A stretch of 64,000 bases of DNA, from assembly GCF_026017845.1 (NCBI RefSeq), contig NZ_CP100416.1, positions 8,760,842-8,824,841 on the forward strand. Reading direction: 5' to 3'. The position numbers and the translations under genes were made by a program. Of the stretch, positions 1 to 6,065 are shown piece by piece. The stretch comes from Amycolatopsis mediterranei. Its GTDB lineage: Bacteria; Actinomycetota; Actinomycetes; Mycobacteriales; Pseudonocardiaceae. The number at the start of each line of letters is the position of its first letter. The first letter of the stretch is position 1. The notes beneath the pieces were generated by a model that made no database searches, had not been told where the DNA came from, and was given only the letters and a program-made list of their open reading frames with translations.

Positions 1-765
1 TTCTGGACGCAGGTCCGCGTGTTGACGGCCCGTTCCTCGCGGACGGCGTTCGGCGACCGCCGGCTGGTCTTCTTCGGCCTGCTGCAGCCGGTGGTGCTGC
101 TGTTGCTGTTCAGCCAGGTGTTCAGCGGCGTCGGCGCGCTGCCGGGCGTCGCGGCGTACCAGGGTTACGTGAACTTCCTGGTGCCGGCGACGCTGGTCAA
201 CATCGCCATGACGACGGCGATGAGCTCGGGCGCGGGCCTGCTGGCGGAGATCTACGGCGGCTTCACCGGACGGCTGCGCTGCCTGCCGATCTCCCTGTTT
301 TCCGTACTGGTGGCCCGCACCCTGGCGGATGCCGCGCGGCTGGGTGTCCAGCTGGCGGTGACGGCCGTGGCCAGCGTGGTCTTCCTGGGCTTCCGCCCGG
401 CGGGCGGCCTGGTCGGCCTGGCGTTGGCCCTGGTGCTGACGCTGGTCGTCGGCTGGTGCCTGAGCTGGGTGTTCGTGGCGATCACGACGTGGCTGCGCAA
501 GGCGGAAACGCTCCAGGCGGCGTCGTTCGTGGTGATGTTCCCGCTGATGTTCTCATCGAGCGCGTACATGCCTCTGGACACGATGCCGGCGTGGGTCCGC
601 GCGGTTTCGGCGGTCAACCCGCTGACCTACGCGATCGACGCAACCCGCGCGCTGGCTTTGGCCCGCCCGCTCGGCTGGTCGCTCCTGACGGCCCTGATCA
701 TCGCCGCGGTGGCCGCGGTGGCGGGCGCCACGCTGGCCGCCCGCACCTTCCGGCGCCGCACCTAA
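1..765 (+). CDS. ABC-2 type transporter permease, DrrB-like (5' end cut off)
   Basis: The reading frame is open from the first base and continues through the GTG at 19, so the true start lies outside the window; 254 codons are visible. The product is a polytopic membrane protein with about six hydrophobic segments, such as the ones beginning LVFFGLLQPVV and LVGLALALVLTLVVGW, and a conserved region with YMPLDTMPAWVRAVSAVNPLTY. This layout is that of ABC-2 permeases of the daunorubicin-resistance (DrrB) type, which pair with a DrrA ATPase to export drugs, lipids or glycans. The ATPase would be expected upstream, outside the window. The substrate cannot be told. Family assignment is firm; function is inferred. 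Confidence 0.88.
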   Translation, partial: FWTQVRVLTARSSRTAFGDRRLVFFGLLQPVVLLLLFSQVFSGVGALPGVAAYQGYVNFLVPATLVNIAMTTAMSSGAGLLAEIYGGFTGRLRCLPISLFSVLVARTLADAARLGVQLAVTAVASVVFLGFRPAGGLVGLALALVLTLVVGWCLSWVFVAITTWLRKAETLQAASFVVMFPLMFSSSAYMPLDTMPAWVRAVSAVNPLTYAIDATRALALARPLGWSLLTALIIAAVAAVAGATLAARTFRRRT

Positions 766-1160
766 CCCAGCGACTCCAGCCTCGTCGCGGCCTCTTCCGC
801 TCCACCCGCCGCTTCGAACGAGTCGCGGATCTTCTCGGCGCCGAGGCGGTACTGACCCGCCGATTCGATCGCCTCGCGGATGTCGGCCGCCTTCGCGCGG
901 TCGAACCGCAGCCGCACCCCCGCCGAGGCCGCGACCACCTGCTGGGCCAGCATCGACTGGTCGTCGCGGATCGGGGCCACCACCAGCCCCCGCACGGACG
1001 GCATCCCGGCCAGCGCGTCGACGCTCTCGGCCAGGAACCGCACGCCGGCCGCCGCGTTCGCCGTTCCCAGCGTCACCACGACCAAGGGGCGTCCGTCCAC
1101 ACCGGACCATTCGCCCGCACTGGCGGCCAAGGCGGGCCCGACGTACGACACCGGAACCAC
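762..1160 (-). pseudogene. Glycosyltransferase remnant (C-terminal third only)
   Basis: About 130 residues resemble the C-terminal, nucleotide-sugar-binding half of MGT/UDP-glycosyltransferases of the macrolide type: YVGPALAAS, then RPLVVVTLGTAN, then a segment ending in VRGLVVAP, and a C-terminal helix. A complete enzyme has about 390-420 residues. The acceptor-binding N-terminal domain is missing, and the frame upstream of about 1160 runs into a stop and then into an unrelated gene fragment on the other strand. The stop overlaps the ABC permease stop by four bases. It is very unlikely to be active. An intact short ORF remains, so expression of a fragment is possible but not suggested by any ribosome-binding site I can see. 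Confidence 0.7.
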
Positions 1161-1170
1161 CGGCCGGCAC

Positions 1171-1627
1171 TACCGCACCCCGGTCGCGGAGACGTTCCTC
1201 GCGCTCTCGGATCTGGTGCGGCAGGGGAAGATCCGGTACGCCGGGACGTCGGAGTGGACGGCCGAGCAGCTCCTACAGGCCCACGAAGCCGCGGCGCGGT
1301 ACAACGTGCCGCTGATCGCCAACCAGCCGCACTACTCGATGCTGTGGCGGGTGCCCGTGGCGCAGGTGATGCCGGTGGGCGGCGCGGATCGGCGTCCGGC
1401 AGTTCGCCTCGGTGTCCCTCGCTCAGGGCGTGCTGGCCGGCAAGTACCGGGATGGCCGGATCCCGGCGGGTTCGCGCGCGGCCGGGCCGCCGCCCAGCCG
1501 GCCGTTGCTCCTGCCGGAGCTGCTGGAACGGGTGGAGCTGCTGCGTGGCGTCGCGGACGACGCCGGCCCAGCTTCGCCCAGACCGACCCGCGGCTGGTGT
1601 GGTCCGCCGCCCGCTCAGCTGTCCTAG
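1171..1627 (+). pseudogene. Aldo/keto reductase remnant, frameshifted and truncated at both ends
   Basis: The first frame reads TPVAETFLALSDLV followed by RQGKIRYAGTSEW and NQPHYSMLWR, typical of the middle of aldo/keto reductases of the potassium-channel beta type. Near 1385-1410 the similarity jumps to another frame, which continues with VSLAQGVLAGKYRDGRIP. The last part (after 1560) no longer resembles the family. The N-terminal half with the catalytic Asp-Tyr-Lys is missing and at least one frameshift is needed, so this is a dead gene. It abuts the glycosyltransferase remnant near 1160, which suggests that one deletion or recombination event joined the two. The stop shares bases with the stop of the CHAT gene on the opposite strand. 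Confidence 0.75.
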
Positions 1628-4233
1628 CCGGCGCCGAGGCAGACGAACGGGCGGCGGAACGGGTCGACGGCGATCGCGTCGGCCAGCGCCAGCGCCGGGC
1701 TCTCCCGGACGGCCAGCGCGCGGTAGTAGTCGTCCATCGCGGCGGCCGAGGCGAGGTCGCCGACGCGCGACAGCGGCGCGATCACCGTCCGGGAGCCGCT
1801 GGCCAGCAGCGCGCTGGCGAAGCCGAGGGCTTCGTCGCCGGGCCGGATCCGGTTCATCGCGAGCTCGCACGCGGCGAACACGACCTGCCGCGGCGGCTGC
1901 CGCAGCCCGGCCATCTCGTGGCCGAACAGCGCGCCGTCGGCGAGTTCGAGCCGGGAGAACAGCGCGTTTTCCGGCTCGTGCGCGCCGTGCGCGGCGAAGT
2001 GCGCGAGCTTGGCGCCGTCCATCGCGCGCAGCACGGACTTCACGGTGGCCTGGGCGCCGGTCATCGTCGTCGCGGTGCGGTAGTGCGTGGTGAGCTTCTC
2101 GAGCTCACCACGGGCGCCGGCCAGCCCGGGCCCGCGGACGAGCACGATCTTGCGGGCGCGCGACGACTTCGTCAGCTCGGCGGCCAGCCAGGCGGTCGCC
2201 GACGGCGCGACGACGGTCGGCCGCCCGAGCAGCCCGGGCAGCACGCCCCACGGCACGGCGTAGAGCGGCCCGGTCGGGACGATGACCAGCTCGCGCTCGC
2301 CGATGAGGCCGGCCAGGGGCTGGATCAGCTGCGTGTCGAGCTTGTCGGCCTGCTTGTGCGCGGAGGCCATGACGACCTCGGCCAGCCGTTCGGGCAGGTT
2401 GTCGGGAGCAAGGGCATCGAGGTCGACGTTCAGCACGCGCGCGGACTCGGCGGCGGACCCGGCGGACCCGAGCCGCACGAGCCGGCACTCACCCCCGGCC
2501 AGCACGACCGCGACGAGGTCGTCCCCGGAAGCGGCGAAGCTGATCAACGCCCGCTCACCGAGCCGCGCAATGACCTCGGCGAGCCCGGCAACGGGCCGCG
2601 GCCGGCCCCACCGCCCGGTGTGCCAGCCGAGCCGCTGGGCTTCCCGCAGCCGTTCGTTGTACTTCGCCCGCAGGCCGGCGACGGGGTGGCCGTCGTGCTG
2701 GGCCTCCTGGATGGCCTGCCCGAGCCCGCGGACCTCGGCCACGCGCGCGGCGAGTTCGGGATCGGTCCCGGCGGAGAGCGGTTCGTAGCGGTAGGTCTGC
2801 GCCCGGGTCCGTTCGAGCCAGACGAACAGCCGCCGGGCATCGTGGCGCTCGAGCACCAGCTTGACGGCGAGATCGGCGAGTTCCTGCCCGTGCAGAGCGG
2901 TCCCGGAGACGAGATCGAGCCCGCCCATCCGATCCCGCACGGCGTCCAGTTCGGTGAGCCCGGACCGGATCTCGGTGAGCGCCTTGGCCCGGTCGCCCTG
3001 CGCCACGGCGAGTTCGGCCCGGCAGAGCCGCCGCAGCATCCGGTAGTCGATGGGCGTGAGCTGCCCGGGGCGCGGGACCTTCTGCAGAGTCTCGACGGCA
3101 CGCTTGAGGTTGCCGCGCCGGATGTCCAGCCGGACGGCGAGCATCCGCGCGGTGGCGGCCTGCTCGGCCAGGCGGGGAAGCTGCATCTTGTCCGCGGTCC
3201 GCAAGGCGCGCACCGGCAGTCCCGGGGGCAGCGTCCCGCTCGCCACCGCCTCGCGCACGTCGGCCTGCAGACCGAGGACGGCCGCATTGGCCACACAGGT
3301 CTGGCAGCCCACCCGCAGCAGGAGCCGGCGAGCGGAAGCGGCCGTCTGGCGGGCGAATTCGATTTCGTCGTTCAGCAGCGCGGCCGAGGCGCGCAGCAGC
3401 TCCGCGGCACCGAGGTGGCTGGCGATGCTGGGCTCGGCGGTCATCCGGGCGATCAGGTCGTCGAGGTGGCTGCCCGCCTCGTCGGCCAGCCCGGCGGTCA
3501 GCAGGGCCTGCGCCTGTTCCATCGACAGGAGGGCCGGGGCCTCGAGATCCAGCGCGCGGTACACCCGCTCGCTCTCCTGGTAGAGCCGCAGCGCCTCCGG
3601 CACGTCGCCGGTCCGCAGCGACAACGTCCCGAGGATGCGGCGGACATCGGCGGCCTGTCCCCTTAATTCGTATTTCTCCGACAGCTCCAGAGCCCGGTTC
3701 AGGTCCGCGCGGGCCTGGCTCACGTTGCCGAGCTTGGTGTGCACCCAGCCGCGCGAATAGAGCGTTACGACGAATCCGCGCATCTGTGGCGTCGGATCGC
3801 CCAGCTGGGTGAGCAGGAATTCCTTGTGCTCGAGCGAGGCGTCGAAGGAGGCGAGACTCTCCTCGTTGCGCCCGACCGTCATGAGGCGCATGGCGTAGTT
3901 GTGGTCCAACGTTCCGTTCAGGTCGGCGCGCAGGACCGGGTCGGCCACGGCGTTGATGAGCAGCCGCACGTCGTCCAGGCCGGCCAGCCCGGCCGCGACG
4001 TCTCCCGTGAGCTCCGACGACATCCCGGCCAGGGTGCTGGCCACCTTGATCCGCGTGACCAGCCAGTCGGTGCGGTGCTCGTCGGCGACCGGGTGGATCG
4101 AGTCCAGCAGGCTCATACCCCGCCGCAGGTGCTTGACCCCCTGGTGGAAACGCCCGAGGCACGACGCATCGGCGGCGGCTTGCTGGAGGGCGCGGACCGA
4201 CTCGATGACTTCCGGGGGGTCCAGGTTCGTCAC
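1624..4233 (-). CDS. TPR-repeat protein with C-terminal CHAT (caspase-like) protease domain
   Basis: The GTG at 4233 is preferred because an AAGAGGG ribosome-binding site lies just upstream; this gives 869 residues. The N-terminal 550 residues or so are alpha-helical repeats of TPR type, for example the stretches around SFDASLEHKEFLL, NVSQARADLNRALEL and GDVPEALRLYQESE. The C-terminal 300 residues are a CHAT domain, a caspase/separase-related peptidase: HFAAHG holds the predicted catalytic His (about residue 749) and VVFAACELA the catalytic Cys (about 789), at the usual spacing of 40 residues. Both are present, so the protease is probably active. The protein is cytoplasmic, with no signal or membrane segment. 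A gene for a 52-residue peptide lies upstream on the same strand and is a candidate substrate or partner. That link is inference. Confidence 0.9.
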   Translation of the reverse strand: MTNLDPPEVIESVRALQQAAADASCLGRFHQGVKHLRRGMSLLDSIHPVADEHRTDWLVTRIKVASTLAGMSSELTGDVAAGLAGLDDVRLLINAVADPVLRADLNGTLDHNYAMRLMTVGRNEESLASFDASLEHKEFLLTQLGDPTPQMRGFVVTLYSRGWVHTKLGNVSQARADLNRALELSEKYELRGQAADVRRILGTLSLRTGDVPEALRLYQESERVYRALDLEAPALLSMEQAQALLTAGLADEAGSHLDDLIARMTAEPSIASHLGAAELLRASAALLNDEIEFARQTAASARRLLLRVGCQTCVANAAVLGLQADVREAVASGTLPPGLPVRALRTADKMQLPRLAEQAATARMLAVRLDIRRGNLKRAVETLQKVPRPGQLTPIDYRMLRRLCRAELAVAQGDRAKALTEIRSGLTELDAVRDRMGGLDLVSGTALHGQELADLAVKLVLERHDARRLFVWLERTRAQTYRYEPLSAGTDPELAARVAEVRGLGQAIQEAQHDGHPVAGLRAKYNERLREAQRLGWHTGRWGRPRPVAGLAEVIARLGERALISFAASGDDLVAVVLAGGECRLVRLGSAGSAAESARVLNVDLDALAPDNLPERLAEVVMASAHKQADKLDTQLIQPLAGLIGERELVIVPTGPLYAVPWGVLPGLLGRPTVVAPSATAWLAAELTKSSRARKIVLVRGPGLAGARGELEKLTTHYRTATTMTGAQATVKSVLRAMDGAKLAHFAAHGAHEPENALFSRLELADGALFGHEMAGLRQPPRQVVFAACELAMNRIRPGDEALGFASALLASGSRTVIAPLSRVGDLASAAAMDDYYRALAVRESPALALADAIAVDPFRRPFVCLGAG

Positions 4234-4273
4234 AGGCACCCTCTTATGACAGCACAGCCGATGGCAGAAAGAA

Positions 4274-4306
4274 GCCCGCCTACCGGTCAAAGATCAGCAG
4301 GCGGGC
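4274..4306 (-). terminator. Hairpin between peptide gene and CHAT gene
   Basis: The arms AGGCGGGC and GCCCGCCT are perfectly complementary (8 bp) around a 17-base loop, and on the minus strand the stem is followed by TTCTTT. It sits in the 93 bases separating the peptide stop from the CHAT start. It may be an intrinsic terminator or attenuator that lets the peptide be made in excess over the protease. The T tract is short, so termination may be partial. Confidence 0.5.
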
Positions 4307-4326
4307 CTCGGCCAGGCGGCTCGCTA

Positions 4327-4485
4327 TCAGGCCGTGACCTTCTGGTAGCAGCCACCCACGCACTCGGTGTGGACCGGGTGCTCGGTGTGGAGCTTGCCGT
4401 CCGAGTCGGTCCACTGGACCGTCGGGCCGGTCGGCTCGACCGGCTCCGGAGCTTCTTCCGGCTTGACATCCGTGGGCGTCGACAT
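4327..4485 (-). CDS. 52-residue His/Cys-rich peptide upstream of the CHAT gene
   Basis: This gene has a strong ribosome-binding site (GGAGAGGAGAT) seven to ten bases before its ATG, and its codon use fits the neighbours. The N-terminal half is acidic and proline-rich (KPEEAPEPVEP). The C-terminal half reads VQWTDSDGKLHTEHPVHTE, followed by CVGGCYQKVTA, so H33, H36, H39, C42 and C46 are regularly spaced. Possible roles are a substrate cleaved by the downstream CHAT protease, a ribosomally made peptide precursor (acidic leader, Cys-rich end), or a small metal-binding protein. No modifying enzyme gene is next to it. I do not recognise a named family. That it is a real gene is well supported; the function is unknown. 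Confidence 0.72.
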   Translation of the reverse strand: MSTPTDVKPEEAPEPVEPTGPTVQWTDSDGKLHTEHPVHTECVGGCYQKVTA

Positions 4486-4821
4486 GGTCGATCTCCTCTC
4501 CCCTGGGGATCTTCATGGGGACGCTGCCGTGACGGTGAGTCCCCTGTCGCGAGGCCCTCTCCCCGCGAACGGCCCAATAGTTTCACATCAGAGCAATGAT
4601 CGGGAGAGTTTTCGCTACGGAAAGTCAGTCCATGGTGCGTGAGCAGGCGAGATGTCTCGATCGGAACGTCCTAAAGAGTGAAGTCTGTAACGACGTCCAA
4701 TACGGACGTGCATCCCACCCTGGTGGAACCCTTTTCCGGACCACCGGCAGGCACGTGTTGCTCCGGGTACGGAACGTGACCGCCGGCCGCCGGTCCGCAC
4801 CGGAATGTCCTCAGTGGACGG
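4486..4821. other. Intergenic region upstream of the peptide gene
   Basis: These 336 bases hold no convincing gene. The G+C content drops around 4570-4700, as expected of a promoter region for the peptide gene, but I cannot place a clear -35/-10 pair. A perfect inverted repeat, ACGTCC and GGACGT with a 5-base spacer, lies at 4693-4709 and could be an operator. Confidence 0.4.
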
Positions 4822-5961
4822 CTAGGCCGTCGCCGCCGCGTGGAGCGCGCGGACCAGACGCACGTTTTCCGGCGCGGCTCCGCCCGGGAAAGCGCACCGG
4901 CGGCGGTTGTAGCCGTACGCGAGGCCGCTGCGCGGGTCGGCGAACGCCTGCGAGCCGGCCGCGCCACTGTGACCGATGGCGCCCTGGCTCAGGACCGGGT
5001 AATTGTCCGAGACGATCGCGAAGCCCAGGCCGAACGCGTTGCGGTTGCGCGTGGCGACGTCATCGCCGATCGAATGGAGCTGCGCGAACTCGGCCGCGGT
5101 CTCCGGAAGCAGGAGCGGCTCCGGCCCGCTGATCGCCGCGGCGTACAGGCCGGCCAGGCCGCGCGCCGACGCCACGCCGCCCACCGAAGCCGGGCTCAGC
5201 TGCCGGACCAGCTTGCGGTTCGGCAGCTCCCAGAGTTCGGGTGCCTTCGGGTGGTTGCGGTTGAACGCGATGCCCGTGATGCTGTCCGGCCCGGTCGCGT
5301 TCGCCGCCAGCTCCGCCTGCTGCTCGGGCGTCGGCAGCATCGGCAGCGTGGTCAGGAAGCGCGGCTCCAGTTCCTCGGGCAGCCCCAGGTAGAAGTCCAG
5401 GCCGAACGGCTTCCGGACGCGTTCCTCGTAGTGCTCCTGGATGCTGCGGCCGGTCACGCGCCGGACGACCTCGCCGGTCAGCGCGCCGATCACCAGCGCG
5501 TGGTAACCGAACGCGGTGCCCGGCCGCCAGTACGGCCGCTGCGGGGCGAGCCGCTCGGCGATGACGCGGTCGTCGGCGATCTCGTCGCCGGTGAACCCGT
5601 CGTCGGCGCCCACGACACCGGCCCGGTGCGCGAGCAGCTCCCGCAGGGTGATCCCGCTCTTGCCGGCGGCGCCGAACTCCGGCCAGTAGTGGGCGACCCG
5701 CTGGTCGAGGTCGAGCACGCCGTCCTGGACGAGCAGCGCGACCACCAGGTGCGCGGCCCCCTTGGTCGAGGAGAACACGCCGGTCAGCGAGTCTCCGGTG
5801 AAGCCAGGCCCGGTCCACAGGTCGACGACCCGCTCGCCGCCGACGTGCGCGACGAGCTGAGCGGCGTAGTCGCCGCCTTCCTCGGTCGCGACGGCGGCGA
5901 ACTCTTCCCGCACGGACTCGAACCCGTCGGCGACGGTCCCCTGGACGTGCTCGGACGACAT
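4822..5961 (-). CDS. Serine hydrolase of the beta-lactamase/esterase (class C-like) family
   Basis: Start at the ATG at 5961, which follows a GAGGGAGCT ribosome-binding site; 379 residues. The catalytic SxxK motif is seen as SSTK (S64, K67) in GVFSSTKGAAH, the Tyr motif as YHA in AFGYHALVIGAL, and the third motif near GHSGAAGSQAF. Such proteins (family VIII esterases, EstB-like, LACTB relatives) hydrolyse esters or, rarely, beta-lactams. No signal peptide is visible, so it is probably cytoplasmic, which argues against a penicillin-resistance role. It is a single gene, divergent from the small membrane-protein gene that follows. The substrate is unknown. Confidence 0.9.
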   Translation of the reverse strand: MSSEHVQGTVADGFESVREEFAAVATEEGGDYAAQLVAHVGGERVVDLWTGPGFTGDSLTGVFSSTKGAAHLVVALLVQDGVLDLDQRVAHYWPEFGAAGKSGITLRELLAHRAGVVGADDGFTGDEIADDRVIAERLAPQRPYWRPGTAFGYHALVIGALTGEVVRRVTGRSIQEHYEERVRKPFGLDFYLGLPEELEPRFLTTLPMLPTPEQQAELAANATGPDSITGIAFNRNHPKAPELWELPNRKLVRQLSPASVGGVASARGLAGLYAAAISGPEPLLLPETAAEFAQLHSIGDDVATRNRNAFGLGFAIVSDNYPVLSQGAIGHSGAAGSQAFADPRSGLAYGYNRRRCAFPGGAAPENVRLVRALHAAATA

Positions 5962-6065
5962 GGCAGCTCCCTCGGTTCTGTCGGTGACGTCGACGCCAGG
6001 AACCAACTCACGTGATGCCGAGGTATTCCGGTAACGCGCGCCCTCCCCGAGGGGATGTTTCCGGC

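Follow-up and report, generated by a model that had tools for sequence, protein, structure and literature searches.

A small acidic peptide gene paired with a TPR-CHAT peptidase gene in one actinomycete clade, and a possible client role for the peptide

In the genome of Amycolatopsis mediterranei, a small open reading frame (ORF) for a 52-residue peptide stands directly upstream of a gene encoding a TPR-CHAT protein. This locus raises the question of whether the small ORF is genuine and belongs with its large neighbor and, if so, what the peptide does there. We analyzed the 64,000-nucleotide stretch that contains both genes (contig NZ_CP100416.1 of 10.6 Mb, positions 8,760,842 to 8,824,841; hereafter "the window") together with related loci, and found that the peptide gene and the CHAT gene are strictly paired in one clade. 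We propose, in what we regard as close to an even call, that the two genes make up a proteolytic module in which the peptide is a dedicated client, most likely a substrate, of the TPR-CHAT protein. The following features of the window bear on the argument:

4327..4485, minus strand: gene for a 52-residue acidic peptide, the proposed CHAT client, of the CxC type defined below (ORF with ATG start)
4493..4504, minus strand: strong ribosome-binding site (RBS) of the peptide gene, AGGGGAGAGGAG (from the sequence; same block in near relatives)
1624..4239, minus strand: gene for the TPR-CHAT peptidase, 871 residues, with a TPR superhelix at about residues 1-430 and CHAT at 630-855 (Pfam, AlphaFold2 (AF2), Foldseek)
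1987..1989, minus strand: codon of catalytic His751 (His in 162/162 related loci)
1867..1869, minus strand: codon of catalytic Cys791 (Cys in 162/162 related loci)
4274..4306, minus strand: 12-pair hairpin, terminator-like, with a T-rich tail at 4273-4266 (fold z-score, covariation)
4245..4256, minus strand: promoter-like element TGTGCTGTCATA, whose end lies 5 bases short of the CHAT GTG (conserved pattern)
4566..4587, minus strand: promoter-like block TGTGAAACTATTGGGCCGTTCG, some 80 bases upstream of the peptide start (conserved pattern)

The pairing is evident within the genus, where 32 of 80 genomes contained a match to the window peptide at E 0.1 or better. Forty-six peptide places were listed: one was the window's own, and 32 were fetched. 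Of the remaining 13, all weak (E 0.012 or worse), G040:C7 alone was fetched, at a later stage (as L322). At 30 of the 32 fetched loci, the gene directly downstream encoded a CHAT protein 67-97% identical to that of the window. Across the family, CHAT homologues at E 1e-90 or better occurred in 212 of 390 genomes. We fetched most of the listed matches, with about 46% identity as the lower limit, which gave a table of 162 distinct loci (168 before the removal of six duplicates, judged on the last 600 residues); these are mostly the best listed matches, with lower-ranking ones left out, and no random draw. Peptide calls and type labels followed simple rules based on the RBS, GC content at third codon positions (GC3), and regular expressions. 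A FastTree phylogeny of the CHATs with midpoint root (re-rooted labels 0.37 for the 142-member side versus 1.0 for the 20-member side) separated a clade of 142, spread over 114 genomes and seven genera, in which a small RBS-equipped peptide gene lay directly upstream in 142/142 cases (141 by script, L213 by eye). The same script called an upstream peptide gene at 0/20 CHATs of the sister clade. Six further CHAT loci checked later, among them the partial CHAT match G141 and G148, followed the same division, with a peptide at both members of the peptide clade (L321, L323) and at none of four loci beside sigma-type neighbors (L324-L327); L324, which by identity came closest to breaking this pattern, fell with the sister type. 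A preliminary description of this locus, made from the sequence alone, had set conservation of the peptide beside CHAT homologues as its own refuting test, and the peptide was conserved at the 30 loci of the genus and throughout the clade. The linkage behind the dedicated protease and peptide pair that it suggested is therefore conserved, while the nature of that pair is argued here from sequence.

The sister clade is preceded by other genes. Upstream of its 20 CHATs we found a protein of about 155 residues in 13 (by sequence pattern), a subtilase in three, and no called gene in four. The protein of about 155 residues gave a weak CarboxypepD_reg match in the two copies scanned (L174, one of the 13, and a copy at L089), and the subtilase scanned at L181 was Peptidase_S8 by Pfam. 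In the sub-clade formed by L163, L181, and L273, the subtilase gene places two different proteases side by side. The host genome itself has 10 CHAT matches. One of these, L089 (G000:C1:9831100), is preceded by a sigma-70 factor, the one locus at which a sigma factor upstream of a sister-type CHAT was confirmed by Pfam (Sigma70_r2), and by the weak CarboxypepD_reg protein, here of about 160 residues. Another, L091 (G000:C1:7142069), is a truncated CHAT copy in two frames, 55% identical to the window CHAT over residues 690-870. At none of the further host-genome CHATs L087-L092 did a peptide homologue score above chance.

The 142 peptides fall into four types, defined by regular expression: CxC (78, including L213), CC (23), GGPY (28), and other repeats (Rep, 13). 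These types follow the CHAT tree, in which the CC (23 members, support 1.0), GGPY (28, 1.0), and CxC (78, 0.99) CHATs each form a clade and the Rep CHATs form a clade of 12 (1.0) plus the outlier L154. Twenty-eight genomes carry two CHATs with different peptide types (CxC and GGPY in 16, CxC and Rep in 12). All 142 peptides are 43-148 residues long and net negative. None contains a 15-residue window with hydropathy above 1.6 (highest 1.5), so that, by this hydropathy measure, the signal sequence expected of an exported RNPP or Rap-Phr type peptide was found in 0/142. The N-terminal columns vary less than the rest (mean entropy 1.22-1.35 versus 1.45-1.99). The window peptide had zero matches in Pfam, NCBIfam, or PADLOC. 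Ten more peptides covering all types had no more than weak, low-complexity matches in NCBIfam and Pfam, all below cut-off. An AF2 model of the window peptide from 15 sequences had a predicted local distance difference test score (pLDDT) of 57 and a predicted template modeling score (pTM) of 0.23, consistent with disorder.

To this we add evidence of selection on the encoded protein. The ratio of nonsynonymous to synonymous substitution (dN/dS; pooled Nei-Gojobori) in five groups of 13, 15, 18, 10, and 7 loci lay at 0.24-0.55 for the peptide, against 0.17-0.22 for CHAT (0.55 and 0.20 in the 13-member group of the window peptide). The peptide is therefore under purifying selection as a protein, yet changes faster than its CHAT partner. 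The ORF with its strong RBS is present as the preliminary description reported, with AGGGGAGAGGAG stopping 7 bases short of the ATG. On the strength of these sequence comparisons we regard the small ORF as a genuine gene.

Peptides of the types that lack Cys are marked by repeated motifs, for example GGPYKPT, GGPFKTT, GPVHHES, and GPRNTST, in 1-11 copies, with 1-6 units per GGPY peptide and 5-11 units of GPRNT; among the CxC and CC sequences read we saw no tandem repeats. Over the four residues after the seed, in 17 GGPY loci whose CHATs are <92% identical, units were 0.83 identical within a peptide and 0.32 between loci, and in eight loci of the GP types the corresponding values were 0.64 and 0.27. 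Homogeneity within peptides together with difference between loci means that the copies change in step within each peptide. Copy number also varies between close relatives (5, 5, 7, and 11 GPRNT units in four genomes with CHATs 92-97% identical). When a GGPYKP peptide was searched in 386 genomes, 20 matched. Nineteen of these belong to a single genus, and in each of them the match lies at a CHAT; the twentieth match (G211) is weak. At the search sensitivity used, the repeats are thus not spread over other genes. A motif of the form (G/N/D/A)G(P/C) extends beyond the repeat types, being present above every shuffle in 70/77 CxC, 28/28 GGPY, and 11/13 Rep peptides, although for GGPY this follows in part from the class definition.

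The second gene encodes a member of the CHAT family (PF12770) by Pfam, at 96.3 bits against a cut-off of 24 over residues 630-855, with a Pfam TPR match at residues 160-229. Its His751 and Cys791 are invariant, in agreement with the intact dyad first noted for this protein. Relatives found for the window CHAT protein numbered 14, all from Amycolatopsis. An AF2 model, built on 15 sequences with a mean column identity of 89%, gave a helical superhelix at about residues 1-430, mostly at high pLDDT. Foldseek matched this model to TPR superhelices including the partner-bound LGN/Pins and OGT and, lower down (ranks 24 and 37, matches of a generic TPR type), human separase (9hms, 7nj0). A single-sequence search of the PDB returned TPR-type matches only; a profile search returned 56 sequences, nearly all TPR proteins, with no CHAT among them. 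Given these superhelix matches, a peptide-binding groove is plausible, and the TPR part may bind the peptide there.

The region between the two genes suggests how they might be expressed. Conservation favors GTG 4239 as the CHAT start, 87 bases past the peptide stop codon; the 93-base spacing given earlier fits the next GTG at 4233, and the TTG at 4290 of the ORF listing lies within the hairpin. The intergenic stretch of the window folds at z -5.5 relative to dinucleotide shuffles. In 22 CxC loci, 96.6% of 264 cells pair in the hairpin, both sides have changed at 7/12 pairs, and 0/500 shuffles attain any of the observed measures, so that the hairpin with T-tract reported before is borne out by covariation. 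More widely, the minimum free energy (MFE) of the RNA had z < -2 in 129/141 intergenic regions. The pattern TGTGnTnTSAT precedes the CHAT start in 112/141 peptide-clade intergenic regions versus 2/2820 mononucleotide shuffles (CxC 75/77, GGPY 26/28, Rep 11/13, CC 0/23), and in the CxC and Rep types the first ATG, GTG, or TTG most often lies 6 bases after it. Upstream of the peptide, TGTG-N5-8-TT(G/A)-N0-3-CCGTTCG occurs in CxC 59/77, GGPY 18/28, Rep 0/13, and CC 0/23, versus 0/1410 shuffles. Over 4200-4700, a strict scan for promoters and terminators came back empty, with neither the hairpin nor a promoter-like element in it. By their pattern, the TGTGCTGTCATA-type element may be a promoter from which CHAT is transcribed without a leader, and the hairpin may terminate the peptide mRNA. 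The strong RBS, the covarying terminator-like hairpin, and the separate promoter-like element are all sequence features, and at that level they support the earlier suggestion that the peptide is made in excess.

Neighboring genes offer few other partners. We read wider neighborhoods for 71 loci, 60 of them CxC, with one CC, four GGPY, and three Rep, and obtained 198 neighbor-protein clusters. Six clusters cross peptide types (19, 20, 21, 24, 30, and 35; 3-6 loci each), all among L154 and L156-L160; two further ones (54 and 68) with two loci each are chance-sized. Of the type-crossing clusters we read 19, 20, and 21; cluster 19 is GatB and another cluster looks like GatA by eye, and a position after gatA/gatB is conserved in six loci of four genera. 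Between the CxC loci of Amycolatopsis and those of other genera, three neighbor clusters were shared, each with a single other-genus locus. With so few shared neighbors, it is the peptide that stays with CHAT, besides the ancestral gatA/gatB place. We recognized no defense gene by eye among the 12 neighbor-cluster representatives read, and PADLOC, scanned with the window peptide and the window CHAT, returned 0 families at E <= 1. A defense system was set aside on the empty PADLOC result, and the defense-like role once suggested is further disfavored by the conserved gatA/gatB position. A mobile element was also considered and set aside: among the plasmid records searched, the single match had 36% identity and lay in an 11.85 Mb Nonomuraea record.

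In the module that we propose, the small gene would yield a cytosolic, acidic protein in excess, and the disorder predicted for the one modeled peptide would extend to the others. From a leaderless promoter of its own, situated past the terminator, the second gene would yield the TPR-CHAT cysteine peptidase in smaller amounts. The TPR superhelix would grip the peptide at the N-terminal segment, the better conserved part, and the active site of the CHAT domain would work on downstream G-(P/C)-x motifs, of which there is one in most Cys types and 1-11 in tandem in the repeat types. Cutting would be a switch set off by a signal sensed by the TPR part, and it may either inactivate the peptide or free short fragments.

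Several observations weigh against this proposal. An invariant His/Cys dyad is no proof that a peptide partner is proteolysed. The model of the CHAT part is poor, with pLDDT <50 across nearly all of residues 538-871, and for this reason we claim no fold for the domain. In CC peptides the (G/N/D/A)G(P/C) motif stays at the level of shuffled sequences (7/23 versus 6.6), which leaves a common cut site unsupported for that type. Finally, at three loci peptide paralogues stand directly before a gene for a DUF6338-type membrane protein (assigned by Pfam for L055 and by likeness for L056), and the peptide can therefore serve elsewhere; no CHAT match was found in the fetched stretches of these loci, and the L056 peptide has both Cys replaced. 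The three paralogues (L055, G078:C51; L056, G039:C9; L322, G040:C7) are of the CxC type.

The strongest competitor, which we nevertheless consider unlikely, is a securin-like inhibitor: an acidic, disordered peptide would lie along the TPR superhelix, its G-C/P motif would sit as a pseudosubstrate in the CHAT site, and the peptidase would be off until the peptide is removed. The peptide is acidic, evolves fast, accompanies CHAT throughout the clade, and is disordered in one model, and an excess over the enzyme, if real, would fit. Separase and securin likewise combine a superhelical N-terminal part, a caspase-like peptidase, and an acidic partner, and the fold similarity of the TPR part to separase, among others, points the same way. 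Securin is reported to block separase by means of a pseudosubstrate motif (PMC6858450). However, that pair is eukaryotic, the partner here would be inhibitory by analogy, the separase matches are generic, and neither a copy number of 1-11 nor homogenized repeats would be needed for a 1:1 inhibitor. We consider a substrate likelier than an inhibitor because the motif has been multiplied and homogenized in many lineages. The same repeats could be read as those of a peptide precursor. One form of this idea, which we rank behind the inhibitor, is a convertase with its polypeptide precursor: each TPR-CHAT lineage would have its own hypervariable precursor, the repeat types yielding many copies of a species-specific unit (GGPYKPT, GGPFKTT, GGPYQTHS, GPVHHES, GPRNTST) as a kin-specific signal or barcode, and the Cys types would be single-copy relatives. 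If true, multi-copy pheromone and neuropeptide precursors would have a counterpart in the cytosol of these bacteria. Behind both we place a more general version in which CHAT cuts the repeats, or ligates them as some clan-CD enzymes can, into short species-specific peptides that are toxic or serve as a signal, either inside the cell or after export. A conserved N-terminal segment followed by homogenized, locus-specific repeats is indeed the layout of a multi-copy precursor, and it recalls the precursors of ribosomally synthesized and post-translationally modified peptides (RiPPs), with their variable, often repeated C-terminal part. Among the type-crossing neighbors read, however, we recognized no modifying enzyme, transporter, or receptor, and a RiPP cluster was set aside on the lack of the first. 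The CxC and CC sequences read have no tandem repeats, and no peptide has a hydrophobic signal-like stretch. In Rap-Phr systems a TPR protein also has a small peptide gene alongside, and Rap structures appeared weakly in the window-CHAT profile search (E 0.006-0.08), but Phr precursors are exported via a signal sequence, and the partner here is a peptidase.

The remaining alternatives are far less probable. The preliminary description had pointed to regularly spaced H33, H36, H39, C42, and C46, and from these residues one could propose a metal- or redox-sensing peptide whose His and Cys bind zinc or form a disulfide and so regulate CHAT. In the 15-sequence alignment H33, H36, C42, and C46 are invariant and H39 is not conserved; several peptides are His-rich, C-x2-4-C occurs in 78/142 (C-x3-C in 59), and a CC pair in another 23. 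We hold this role very improbable, and we rejected the His/Cys metal motif as the unifying feature because 41/142 peptides, all 28 GGPY and 13 Rep, have no Cys although their CHATs are equally intact. No better in our estimate is a regulatory leader, in which the small ORF would be a mere translated attenuator controlling CHAT through the hairpin. Its position and the covarying hairpin would suit such a role; the length of 43-148 residues, the amino-acid-level constraint, and the homogenized repeats would not, and in 112/141 a promoter-like element downstream of the hairpin seems to belong to CHAT itself. Least probable of all is that the two genes are co-inherited neighbors by descent with no common function. 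The module does track the CHAT tree, and gatA/gatB are likewise kept adjacent in six loci, but the peptide persists when the locus moves, as the CxC loci in other genera with their few shared clusters show, and genomes with both genes together twice number 28.

The window contains other genes around the pair. Positions 1177-1625 (plus strand) hold an aldo/keto reductase fragment in broken frames (Pfam 42.9 bits for a 70-residue piece), and a longer ORF of this type adjoins CHAT in several relatives. At 762-1160 (minus strand) lies an ORF with a weak match, at 20.4 bits short of the cut-off, to the C-terminal domain of EryCIII-like glycosyltransferases. Upstream of the peptide, 4822-6006 (minus strand) encodes a beta-lactamase-fold protein (Pfam 169 bits; best NCBIfam match the esterase LipL, below cut-off), and proteins resembling it form one cluster found in 18/71 of the wider loci.

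To our knowledge, few bacterial CHAT peptidases have a known substrate. In HetF of Anabaena, for which we know of no upstream peptide gene, CHAT and TPR domains are also combined. HetF differs in having its CHAT at residues 1-555 and a transmembrane segment, and mutation of its active site is reported to lead to loss of function (PMC8406250). The known case that we regard, by analogy, as nearest in logic is the cutting of Csx30 by Csx29. Csx29, a TPR-CHAT protein of type III-E CRISPR (Craspase), is reported to cut its neighbor-encoded client Csx30, which binds an extracytoplasmic function (ECF)-like sigma factor (PMC10028731). Both systems share a TPR-CHAT peptidase with a His/Cys dyad and a protein client (proposed, in our case) encoded in the same locus, and the sigma-type neighbors of the sister clade recall the sigma arm. 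The clients differ, ours being an acidic peptide of 43-148 residues, whereas Csx30 residues run to 565 (PMC10028731). By its sequence the window CHAT (P0002) is not a Csx29, scoring 14.1 bits with the NCBIfam Csx29 model against a cut-off of 300.

The CHAT peptidase family was already known; we found no trace, in the libraries searched or among the open-access papers listed, of the peptide families, their strict pairing with one clade, their division into four types, or the concerted repeats. Among the entries listed by our search of the open-access literature, with subscription papers mostly outside it, none deals with a small peptide next to a TPR-CHAT of actinobacteria. Bacteria can have many CHAT (caspase/separase-like) peptidases, and here genetics supplies a partner. 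The 142 natural enzyme-peptide pairs with graded divergence, the variation of repeat units from species to species, and 28 two-pair genomes make specificity and cross-reactivity directly testable. If the peptide is a substrate, these loci would provide short natural cut sites, and if it is an inhibitor, it would be a bacterial analogue of securin.

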